Shown here piece after piece: positions 11,127 to 14,277 of a stretch of DNA of 64,000 nt (positions within the stretch are counted from its first letter, which is position 1; every line of letters begins with the position of its first letter). The position numbers were made by a program, and so were the translations under genes. The notes beneath the pieces were generated by a model. It was not told the DNA's origin, did no database searches, and saw only the letters and a program-made list of their open reading frames with translations. The stretch is from Ramlibacter sp. GTDB taxonomy: Bacteria; Pseudomonadota; Gammaproteobacteria; Burkholderiales; Burkholderiaceae_C. The stretch spans positions 1-64,000 of the forward strand of contig JAAYCV010000092.1 of NCBI GenBank assembly GCA_012729605.1, read 5' to 3'.

Positions 11127-11507
11127 ATGAAATTCGTACCCGACCAGATGGACGTTCCCGCCATCACCGCCCATGGCCCGGGCTGGGTGGCCGTCAATGG
11201 CCAGCCTTTCAGGCACCACCTGTTGCTGACGGCCCAGGGCCTGCTGCAACCCTGGCACTGCACCGGCTTTGACCAGCTCGATACCGGACACTTCAGCCAA
11301 TTGGCCGAACTGCCCTGCGAACTGGTGCTGTTCGGCACCGGCGACCGCCTGCGCTTCCTGCATCCCTCGGTCACGGCCCCGTTGATGGCGCGCGGCATCG
11401 GCATCGAGACCATGGACACCGCTGCCGCCTGCCGCACCTACAACTTCCTGGCCGGCGAAGGCCGCCGCGTGCTGGCCGCGCTGCTGGTGGATGCCCCGGC
11501 ACCGTAA
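11127..11507 (+). CDS. Mth938-like domain protein (DUF498)
   Basis: 126-residue protein of the Mth938-like family, which includes the mitochondrial complex I assembly factor NDUFAF3. Features are ITAHGPGWVAVNGQPF near the N-terminus, CELVLFGTGDRLRFL in the middle and GIGIETMDTAAACRTYNFLAGEGRRVLAALL at the C-terminus (the last a family hallmark). The biochemical activity of bacterial members is not known. It is divergent from alaA and precedes bcp, with a separate leader in between. Confidence 0.85.
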   Translation: MKFVPDQMDVPAITAHGPGWVAVNGQPFRHHLLLTAQGLLQPWHCTGFDQLDTGHFSQLAELPCELVLFGTGDRLRFLHPSVTAPLMARGIGIETMDTAAACRTYNFLAGEGRRVLAALLVDAPAP

Positions 11508-11561
11508 CAAGGGCTTTCACCCTGGCAAGCGCTTGTGATGAATTTCGTTTAAAATAGGGGT

Positions 11562-11695
11562 TTCGATGGCGTCCGGGTTGCCGCAACCCGCGCCGGGTAG
11601 CTGGCCATCGTCTGCCGGCTTCTGTGCCACTCGGGCATCCCAACCGGCGGCACACCTGTGTCGCCTCACCCACGACCATGCCCGAGTCGTCTTTA
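11562..11695 (+). ncRNA. structured RNA leader of bcp (candidate)
   Basis: The 200 bases between the Mth938-domain gene and bcp hold no ORF but several perfect helices: 11564-11570 with 11604-11610 (7 bp), enclosing 11575-11580 with 11584-11589 (6 bp, CCG loop), and 11629-11638 with 11678-11687 (10 bp) enclosing a further small ACAC/GTGT stem. Bases 11614-11618 can also pair with 11644-11648, inside the last loop, giving a possible pseudoknot. A TAAAAT (11550-11555) sits just upstream. The ribosome binding site of bcp follows immediately. I do not recognise a known riboswitch class. Confidence 0.45.
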
Positions 11696-11715
11696 GGAAA
11701 GAGATAAATAACATA

Positions 11716-12204
11716 ATGGCAATCGTCGTAGACAAGCTGATCCCCGAATTCGAGGCCAATGCCACGAGCGACGTCAAGGTCAGCAACACTTCCCATAATG
11801 GCCAGATCCTGGTCCTGTTTTTCTACCCCAAGGACAACACCCCTGGCTGCACCACCGAAGCCATGGAATTCCGTGACCAGTACGAGGCTTTCGAGCAGGC
11901 TGGCGCCGTGGTGTTTGGCGTATCGCGTGACAACATGACGTCGCATGACGGCTTCAAGGAGAAGCTGGGCCTGCCCTACGAGCTGATCGCCGATACCGAA
12001 GAAAAAATGTGCCATATGTTCGGCGTGGTCAAGAACAAGATCATGTACGGCAAGAAGGTCAAGGGCATCGAGCGCAGCACCTTCCTGATCGGCCCCGATG
12101 GCGTGCTGCGTCAGGAATGGCGTGGCGTCAAGGTCGCCGGCCATGTGGATGCCGTGCTGAAGGCCGTGCAGGAACTGAAAGAGACCCTGGCTACCGCCGA
12201 ATAA
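11716..12204 (+). CDS. bcp: peroxiredoxin, Bcp/PrxQ family
   Basis: 162-residue thiol peroxidase that reduces hydrogen peroxide and organic peroxides. The start is the ATG at 11716 after AGGAAAGAG. The peroxidatic Cys45 is in NTPGCTTEAM. The resolving Cys five residues later in E. coli Bcp is replaced by Met50. The only other Cys is Cys99 in EKMCHMFG, so the enzyme is either 1-Cys or uses the distal Cys as in atypical 2-Cys PrxQ. Full length for the family. Followed by a strong terminator. Confidence 0.94.
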   Translation: MAIVVDKLIPEFEANATSDVKVSNTSHNGQILVLFFYPKDNTPGCTTEAMEFRDQYEAFEQAGAVVFGVSRDNMTSHDGFKEKLGLPYELIADTEEKMCHMFGVVKNKIMYGKKVKGIERSTFLIGPDGVLRQEWRGVKVAGHVDAVLKAVQELKETLATAE

Positions 12205-12229
12205 GCTCCCTGGCCTTGTCGCCAGCCGA

Positions 12230-12256
12230 AAGCGCCTGCCCAGCAGGCGCTTTTTT
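12230..12256 (+). terminator. Rho-independent terminator of bcp
   Basis: 10-bp stem (12230-12239 with 12243-12252), CCA loop and a T6 run (12251-12256), 25 bases past the bcp stop. Confidence 0.92.
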
Positions 12257-12435: not shown

Positions 12436-14277
12436 ATGCCATTGCCTCCCGCTCCCAAGAAGCGCGCCACCAAACTGGATGCCGAGCTTCTGACCCAGAC
12501 TCCCCCTACCCGTGCCAGCCAGGCCGAGCCGGCTGACACCACGCCCGTCGCAGCAGCAACAACAGCCAGCACGGACAGCAGCACCAGCGCGCCCAAGCGC
12601 AGCACTACCCGCCGCACCACGACCAGCAGCACGCGCAAGACGAGCGCCGTGACGCCTTCGCTGGATGCCGCTGCAGCCGTGGCAGCCACGGCACCTACGC
12701 GTCGTCGCACCGCAGCAGCCAAGCCTGCCGCGGCAGCAGTGGCCGAGAGCCCGCCGCCTGCAAGCACTGTCACGACCCAACCCACCGCCAGACCAGCTGC
12801 AGCCAAACCGGTGGCCGCCACTCCGGTCCCGGCCACCCGGCCGGCTCGTGCACGCAAGAAGGCCACTGGCAGCGAGCCCGAGGTGCGCCGCCTGTTCGTG
12901 CTGGATACCAATGTGCTGATGCACGATCCGATGTGCCTGTTCCGCTTCGAGGAACATGACATCTTCCTGCCACTGATCGTGCTGGAAGAGCTGGACAGCC
13001 ACAAGAAGGGCATGACGGAAGTCTCGCGCAACGCGCGCCAGACCAGCCGCACGCTGGATGCGCTGGTGGCAGCGGTGGAATCGCAGGACATGAGCCACGG
13101 CATGCCGCTGGACGCGACCGGCCACAAGGAAGCCACCGGCCGCCTGTTCTTCCAGACCGAGGCACTCGATTACACCCTGCCGAGCTCGCTGCCGCAGGGC
13201 AAGGCCGACAACCAGATCCTGGGCGTGGTGCACGCGCTGGAAGCCGCGCACAAGGACCGCCAGGTCGCGCTGGTGTCCAAGGACATCAACATGCGCGTCA
13301 AGGCGCGCGCGCTGGGCCTGCTGGCCGAAGACTACGAGAACGACAAGACACTCGACGACGACGAGCTGCTGTACAACGGCATCCTGATGCTGCCGGCCGA
13401 CTTCTGGGATACGCAGGAAGGCGATATCGAGAGCTGGCAGGAAGGCGCGCATACCTATTACCGCGTGCAGGGCCCGCTGACGCAGCAGATGCTGATCAAC
13501 CAGTTCGTCTATTTCGAGCAGCCCGGCGAGACCAGCCTGTACACGCGCGTGACCGAAATCCGCGGCAATACGGCGGTACTCAAGACGCTGCGCGACCATA
13601 CCCACCCCAAGCATGCCGCCTGGGGCGTGACGGCGCGCAACCGCGAGCAGAACTTTGCCATGAACCTGCTGCTCGATCCGGAGATCGATTTCGTCACCCT
13701 GACCGGTACCGCCGGTACCGGCAAGACGCTGCTGGCGCTGGCCTGCGGCCTGACCCAGGTGCTGGATGACCGCCGCTACACCGAAATCATCATGACGCGT
13801 GCCACGGTCAGCGTGGGCGAAGACATCGGCTTCCTGCCTGGCACCGAAGAAGAAAAGATGGGCCCGTGGATGGGCGCGCTGGACGACAACCTGGAGTTCC
13901 TGACCAAGGGCGGCGACAGCAACGGCGCCGGCGAATGGGGGCGAGCCGCCACCAATGAGCTGATCCGCAGCCGCATCAAGATCAAGAGCATGAACTTCAT
14001 GCGCGGCCGTACCTTCCTGAACAAGTTCGTCATCATCGACGAGGCGCAGAACCTGACGCCCAAGCAGATGAAGACGCTGATCACGCGCGCCGGTCCGGGC
14101 ACCAAGATCATCTGCATGGGCAACCTGGCGCAGATCGATACGCCCTACCTGACCGAAGGCTCTTCCGGCCTGACCGCGGTGGTGGACAAGTTCAAGGGCT
14201 GGCCGCACAGCGGCCACATCATGCTGGCACGCGGTGAGCGTTCGCGCCTGGCAGACTTTGCCAGCGAGGTGCTGTAA
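12436..14277 (+). CDS. PhoH-like protein with PIN domain and long N-terminal low-complexity region
   Basis: 613 residues from the ATG at 12436. Residues ~15-145 are a low-complexity Ala/Thr/Pro/Ser/Arg stretch, probably disordered. A PIN-type RNase domain follows (RRLFVLDTNVLMHDP with the acidic Asp, later VLEELDSHKKG and KADNQILGVVHALE). The C-terminal PhoH ATPase has Walker A GTAGTGKT, VGEDIGFLPGTEEEKMGPWM, and Walker B FVIIDEAQNLTPKQMKT. The PIN-PhoH combination is known as PhoAT/PhoH2-type, with RNA helicase/RNase activity shown for actinobacterial members. A GTG 15 codons upstream is an alternative start. pabBC follows after 3 bases. Confidence 0.9.
   Translation: MPLPPAPKKRATKLDAELLTQTPPTRASQAEPADTTPVAAATTASTDSSTSAPKRSTTRRTTTSSTRKTSAVTPSLDAAAAVAATAPTRRRTAAAKPAAAAVAESPPPASTVTTQPTARPAAAKPVAATPVPATRPARARKKATGSEPEVRRLFVLDTNVLMHDPMCLFRFEEHDIFLPLIVLEELDSHKKGMTEVSRNARQTSRTLDALVAAVESQDMSHGMPLDATGHKEATGRLFFQTEALDYTLPSSLPQGKADNQILGVVHALEAAHKDRQVALVSKDINMRVKARALGLLAEDYENDKTLDDDELLYNGILMLPADFWDTQEGDIESWQEGAHTYYRVQGPLTQQMLINQFVYFEQPGETSLYTRVTEIRGNTAVLKTLRDHTHPKHAAWGVTARNREQNFAMNLLLDPEIDFVTLTGTAGTGKTLLALACGLTQVLDDRRYTEIIMTRATVSVGEDIGFLPGTEEEKMGPWMGALDDNLEFLTKGGDSNGAGEWGRAATNELIRSRIKIKSMNFMRGRTFLNKFVIIDEAQNLTPKQMKTLITRAGPGTKIICMGNLAQIDTPYLTEGSSGLTAVVDKFKGWPHSGHIMLARGERSRLADFASEVL

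Follow-up and report, generated by a model that had tools for sequence, protein, structure and literature searches.

The stem-loop of Escherichia coli ompA is the type case of a 5'-terminal stabilising structure in a protein-coding mRNA. Bcp/PrxQ is a widespread antioxidant enzyme. Stem-loops and 5' UTRs are described as a protection against RNases in PMC7509114, and the sucA motif is named as a 5' UTR element in PMC4603805, the main text of which contains no occurrence of bcp or peroxiredoxin. The leader analysed here lies upstream of bcp in a window of 64,000 nucleotides, the whole stretch of Ramlibacter sp. DNA that was studied. No Rfam 15 model matched it at gathering scores or at E ≤ 5, and none matched the bcp loci of 20 relatives. 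A literature search that covered mostly non-subscription papers listed no paper on a bcp leader. Comparative analysis indicates that structure in the 5' UTR of bcp is under selection, at least in part of the family; such a structured leader is real in the family and moderately likely in the window.

The bcp leader of the window and its folding

The best NCBIfam match of the bcp product was PrxQ (E = 2e-43), the scores being below the curated cut-offs for both the PrxQ and the thiol peroxidase models, and the nearest named relatives by Bcp sequence were mostly Comamonadaceae (among the best 80 of 560 encoding stretches). An in-frame ATG upstream allows a 212-aa reading of bcp (11566-12204), which automatic annotation could take as the start. 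The gene immediately upstream of bcp (11127-11507) encodes a DUF498 protein. A long inverted repeat of high GC content with a run of T behind it, AAGCGCCTGC-CCA-GCAGGCGCTT-TTTT, lies after bcp at 12229-12256; by eye it resembles the terminator of the gene, and it was not listed by the consensus scan; the downstream gene (12439-14277) resembles PhoH2 (NCBIfam name: RNA 5'-3' helicase), with 246 bits, below the curated cut-off of 680 bits.

Table 1. Features of the bcp leader and gene in the window
Feature	Position	Strand	Basis and details
-10-like element TAAAAT	11550..11555	+	sequence; start site ~11561-11563 predicted from spacing
5' hairpin	11568..11594	+	predicted fold; GGCG 11568-11571/CGCC 11591-11594, then CGGGTTG 11574-11580/CAACCCG 11584-11590 (exact 7 bp, 3-nt loop)
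Long-range 7-bp helix CGATGGC 11564-11570/GCCATCG 11604-11610	11564..11610	+	exact in sequence; competes with the base of the 5' hairpin
10-bp helix ACTCGGGCAT 11629-11638/ATGCCCGAGT 11678-11687	11629..11687	+	exact; 3' arm stops 8 nt short of the SD-like sequence
Inner hairpin 11646-11653/11658-11665	11646..11665	+	8 bp, one G-U; in minimum-energy folds
SD-like sequence AGGAAAGAG	11695..11703	+	sequence
bcp (PrxQ-type thiol peroxidase) CDS, 162 aa	11716..12204	+	Pfam AhpC-TSA, E 1.1e-33; reading frame

The 5' leader of bcp lies in the window between the -10-like element and the start codon (Table 1). A TAAAAT is found 50-185 nt upstream of the bcp start in 114 of 125 distinct loci of the family. 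An earlier note, made from the sequence of the window, had placed a -10-like element upstream of three helices of 7, 6 and 10 bp. The TAAAAT is indeed present, but no full sigma-70 promoter was found by consensus scan between 11450 and 12400; likewise, all three helices are exact in the sequence, but the one given as 6 bp actually has 7, and the inner hairpin, a fourth helix, was absent from the list. The distance of 8 bases between the end of the 10-bp helix and the ribosome binding site was confirmed. The long-range 7-bp helix competes with the hairpin base 11568-11571/11591-11594 and with a further pairing, 11599-11605/11614-11620, and the fold of a shorter stretch prefers the latter two. 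The hairpin begins in the predicted fold at 11568 (or 11564), close to the predicted transcript start. By sequence and predicted fold, the window shows the pattern seen in the family, in which a hairpin comes after TAAAAT close to where bcp is predicted to start. The SD region, 4-16 nt before the start codon, has a mean pairing probability of 0.46 in the predicted ensemble; over ten leaders the values ranged from 0.18 to 0.65, neither clearly open nor clearly masked.

The pairing had also been judged too perfect for an ordinary leader, a judgement that did not hold against the background of the contig. Perfect Watson-Crick helices of at least 10 bp occur in 95 of 3194 segments of 134 nt from the same contig, and the z-scores of the folding energy were only -1.12 for the 181-nt region (22 of 200 shuffles fold equally well), -2.07 for the 144-nt leader (19 of 500 equally stable) and -2.41 for a 139-nt cut of the leader (p = 0.015). 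A stability equal to or greater than that of the leader was found in 76 of 487 GC-matched segments sampled from the contig. Among 1000 shuffles of the leader, an end helix like the 10-bp one was formed in 192, a 5' hairpin in 313 and both in 62; the overall frequency of such patterns in shuffles was 13-20% for the end helix, ~30% for the 5' hairpin and 4-6% for both. On its own, the leader of the window appears to fold beyond chance only weakly.

Similar comparisons were made for bcp leaders in general. In a set of 60 dissimilar ones the mean z was -1.16 (19 at p ≤ 0.05), compared to -0.19 for the bcp coding start (3 at p ≤ 0.05) and -0.01 for the stretch before the promoter (2 at p ≤ 0.05). 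The upstream regions of other genes from the same or related genomes, whose starts were set by rough, rule-based means, gave mean z values of -1.35 (n = 12), -0.70 (n = 39) and -0.36 (n = 20), compared to a mean for bcp of -1.06 (n = 70); tests for a lower value at bcp gave p = 0.76, 0.10 and 0.046, respectively. Stability alone does not set bcp apart from the upstream regions of other genes. Beyond the family, little folding was seen upstream of bcp in 25 genomes belonging to the order (start found by rule in 25 of 28 loci), with a mean z of -0.13.

Covariation and distribution of the family hairpin

The first collection comprised 115 bcp loci, of which one (L116) had no start by pattern. Many leaders among the 114 upstream sequences consist of TAAAAT, then GGTTG, then a hairpin, and most are shorter than the leader of the window. 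Exclusion of 10 loci without a -10-like site by rule and of 5 duplicates left 99. As the alignment of the whole family (MAFFT, 84 leaders) gave no consensus fold, covariation was tested in the alignable group only; a second subgroup of leaders (n = 14) gave no consensus fold and a third (n = 7) a partial one. The alignable group of 26 leaders was derived from 22 chosen by pattern, from which L057 was removed by hand and to which L027, L030, L109, L111 and L115 were added. In a structure-blind alignment these 26 share a GUUG/CAAC base and an 8-bp helix, with 93.3% of the cells paired. Their covariation score was 0.184, whereas shuffles gave 0.127, none of 500 attaining the observed value, and slid versions of the structure gave at most 0.117; two-sided changes were present at 3 pairs, a number reached by 14 of 500 shuffles. 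RNAalifold, unaided, recovered the same helices from this set.

A larger set of 75 leaders (69 distinct) was aligned by fitting to the model and is therefore biased towards the structure by construction. Its sources were loci with earlier matches, leaving out L216, L219, duplicates and weak matches such as L031, L094 and L063. Two-sided changes were found in this set at each of the 8 main-helix pairs and at 1 of the 4 pairs of the short base helix, amounting to 34 two-sided cells (0 of 500 shuffles as many). A tree-based null of our own was obtained by redistributing substitutions over a FastTree tree. Against this null, E within the tested set was below 0.05 for 4 of 12 pairs (0.0345, 0.0091, 0.0235 and 0.035) and 0.071 for a fifth; the best structure pair in an open search over all column pairs had only E = 2.9. 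The short GUUG/CAAC helix showed almost no covariation. The main hairpin helix of the family bcp leaders is supported and the short base helix is not. The covariation check that had been proposed for bcp leaders gave support for the main helix in part of the family, but the resulting model misses the leader of the window.

The covariance model of the family hairpin, named R1, matched 61 of 399 family genomes, in 21 of 141 genera and once in each genome, and had no match in the other 338. Of 200 genomes drawn across the order, 3 were matched, all of them in the family of the window. The match abuts the bcp start codon in all 40 checkable cases among the 61 (39 by coordinates, plus G028), an adjacency that is partly built in, as the model includes the start codon. 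R1 did not detect the window at E ≤ 5, nor did it match the genome of the window at E ≤ 0.01 or any of the eight other loci of the genus. The interpretation of the region as a cis-regulatory element is upheld in part: a covarying 5' hairpin adjoins bcp in part of the family, but with R1 missing the window the support there is indirect.

Two short blocks recur before the bcp start in the set of 125 distinct loci (start found in 182 and missed in 4, L210, L213, L216 and L219, with L001-L005, L015-L022 and L160-L188 excluded beforehand). CAACGA is present in 55 of the 125, compared to 0 and 2 in two control stretches, and GTCACACGAGA in 19, compared to 0 and 0. Both are common to part of the family, and no conserved core common to the window and the family leaders was found. 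Two broader candidates were rejected: a regulon sharing CTGTCACACGAGA, which has 11 occurrences among 10 of 100 genomes, 7 immediately upstream of bcp and the other 4 uncheckable; and TAAAAT-N4-GGTTG as a promoter specific for bcp, which has as many as 4 sites each in 7 of 8 genomes.

Long leaders of the genus and the early bcp codons

The bcp gene is present in all nine genomes of the genus that were examined. A promoter core, TTTAAAATAG, is kept in four of them (the window, G002, G003 and G005), ~160-168 nt upstream of the start codon, and is followed there by a leader of ~150 nt, with folded parts of 135-144 nt; the remaining five genomes have different bcp upstream regions. The nearest relative, G002, is 83% identical to the window over 201 bases. 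By eye, it keeps 9 of 10 pairs of the 10-bp helix with one mismatch, 6 of 7 pairs of the hairpin at 11574-11590 (one compensatory double change, one U-G, one pair lost) and 5 of 7 pairs of the long-range helix; the inner hairpin is kept and one pair longer. G003 and G005 have leader sequences very unlike that of the window, and a 5' hairpin, an end helix and an inner hairpin are still predicted. Their 5' hairpins lie at the same place with another sequence, and a 9-bp helix of different sequence takes a place comparable to that of the 10-bp helix, the predicted 3' arm of the end helix again being near an SD-like sequence. A fixed rule applied to the four long leaders found the end helix in 3 of 4 and the 5' hairpin in 3 of 4, and the z-scores of the three relatives were -3.32 (G002), -1.48 (G003) and -2.89 (G005). 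The similar predicted fold of these four leaders is suggestive of selected structure, the evidence being statistically weak, and the claim for the lineage of the window, based on four genomes, is kept moderate. We infer that the leader of the window belongs to the same evolving element as the family hairpin, of which it would be at best a diverged and enlarged relative.

Synonymous choice at the beginning of bcp is strongly constrained among 77 representatives less than 90% identical. Codon 4 is GTT in 92% of them (17% of Val codons overall), codon 2 is GCG in 76% (22% overall) and codon 5 is GTC in 90% (42% overall); they rank first, third and fourth, respectively, in synonymous constraint among 137 positions. 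The constrained codons correspond to 11719-11736 of the window, where codons 3-5 read ATC GTC GTA, codon 4 thus being GTC rather than GTT. The leader block CAACGA is exactly complementary to UCGUUG in codons 3-5, and this complementarity suggests a two-state leader. CAACGA would then pair either with the 5' GUUG, leaving the ribosome binding site free, or with UCGUUG, looping the start codon and the ribosome binding site, as a Comamonadaceae-specific cis-regulatory RNA of bcp that the genus of the window rebuilt in a longer leader; we hold this reading to be improbable. The duplex energies between leader and bcp start were overall no better than those of shuffles (a mean z of -0.33, with p ≤ 0.05 in 11 of 117), and the biased codon choice persists at loci without CAACGA.

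Pairing with the bcp start was accordingly rejected as a general feature, the duplexes being at the level of the shuffles, with single loci that stand out (L039, L125, L027, L130, L069 and L010). In L039 (named Limnohabitans), L069 and L125, the duplex of the leader with bcp codons 1-9 has -20.0 to -25.1 kcal/mol (z -2.5 to -4.3), and in L027 (Comamonas) the z of the leader against the bcp start is -3.9. A trans-acting small RNA carrying an exact 13-nt complement of codons 3-6 was also discarded: such a complement occurs in 20 of 60 genomes with one match each, and these did not reveal a conserved second locus. Thirteen of the 20 matches are at bcp by their coordinates; that of G028 comes directly after the R1 match; those of G062, G079 and G034 are on contigs other than the one with the best bcp match, G025 has no bcp match, and G064 and G027 are uncheckable.

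Interpretation and comparison with described elements

Our preferred reading, held with middling confidence, is that the region is the 5' UTR of the bcp mRNA and acts in cis through protection of the 5' end, tuning of translation or both. In part of the family, a stem-loop lies no more than a few nucleotides from the predicted 5' end of the transcript and is followed by the ribosome binding site; in the genus of the window, the longer leader of ~150 nt has an added predicted helix that stops 8 nt short of the SD-like sequence. The 5' stem-loop may protect the end of the transcript against 5'-end-dependent decay. The accessibility of the ribosome binding site may be set by the folded leader, so that the output of bcp would be set post-transcriptionally. 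If the leader does act in cis, part of Bcp control in these bacteria is post-transcriptional, and it would depend on an RNA element without match in Rfam 15. End protection and translational tuning are preferred to ligand sensing because of the predicted position at the 5' end and of a structure kept under changing sequence.

It is nevertheless quite possible that the leader is an ordinary one and that in the lineage of the window the helices arose by chance in a GC-rich 5' UTR that changes fast and has no selected structure, whether or not a hairpin is under selection in other genera. The modest z-scores, the recurrence of helices this long along the contig, the failure of R1 to detect the window, the similar folding of upstream regions of other genes and the broken long-range 7-bp helix in the nearest relative are all consistent with chance. 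Against it stand the reappearance of the hairpin and the end helix in three congeners (G002, G003 and G005) despite sequence change, including the compensatory double change, and the low z-scores of G002 and G005. A regulated switch (riboswitch, thermometer or redox-responsive leader), in which a signal-dependent fold opens or closes the ribosome binding site, seems unlikely. An antioxidant gene with a structured leader, a helix beside the SD-like sequence in the genus of the window and a conserved CAACGA complementary to strongly constrained bcp codons would suit such a switch, but the window and the other leaders have no common conserved core, the leader-start duplexes do not exceed the shuffles, the codon bias is also present at loci without CAACGA and no Rfam match was obtained. 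As to the sensing of redox ligands, for which the earlier note had proposed probing, no evidence was obtained, the loops differing by eye between congeners; ligand sensing is neither shown nor suggested.

That the leader gives rise to an autonomous small RNA, as the same note had also considered, is very improbable. Nothing beyond the structure itself speaks for it; the leader has no intrinsic-terminator-like site, the only one listed by consensus scan between 11450 and 12400 lying inside bcp at 11800-11814, and it matches its own genome only once. A partly coding leader, in which translation from the ATG at 11566 would give Bcp a 50-residue N-terminal extension, is hardly credible. The frame is open in the window from this ATG to the end of bcp, but the same ATG lies in G002 146 nt from the bcp start and so is not in frame, none is present at this place in G003 or G005, and both the position and the sequence of the start at 11716 are conserved. 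The leader was thus rejected as protein, its frame being lost in G002 and its ATG absent in the two other congeners.

Under the preferred reading of a 5' UTR acting in cis, the bcp leader resembles the 5'-terminal stabilising stem-loops of the E. coli ompA type in having a stem-loop near the predicted 5' end of a protein-coding mRNA and in being conserved in structure and not in sequence. It differs from them in that the window adds a second helix near the ribosome binding site and in that the bcp 5' end is a predicted one. With the R1 hairpin of other Comamonadaceae, the window has in common the same gene, a TAAAAT with a hairpin after it close to the predicted start and a ribosome binding site downstream of the hairpin, whereas it is undetected by R1 and differs in leader length and in the sequences of the helices. 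The sucA motif (RF01070), a 5' UTR element of the Burkholderiales (PMC4603805), belongs to a different gene, and no Rfam model, that of sucA included, matches the leader of the window; like this motif, the bcp leader would be a lineage-restricted structured 5' UTR of the same order.
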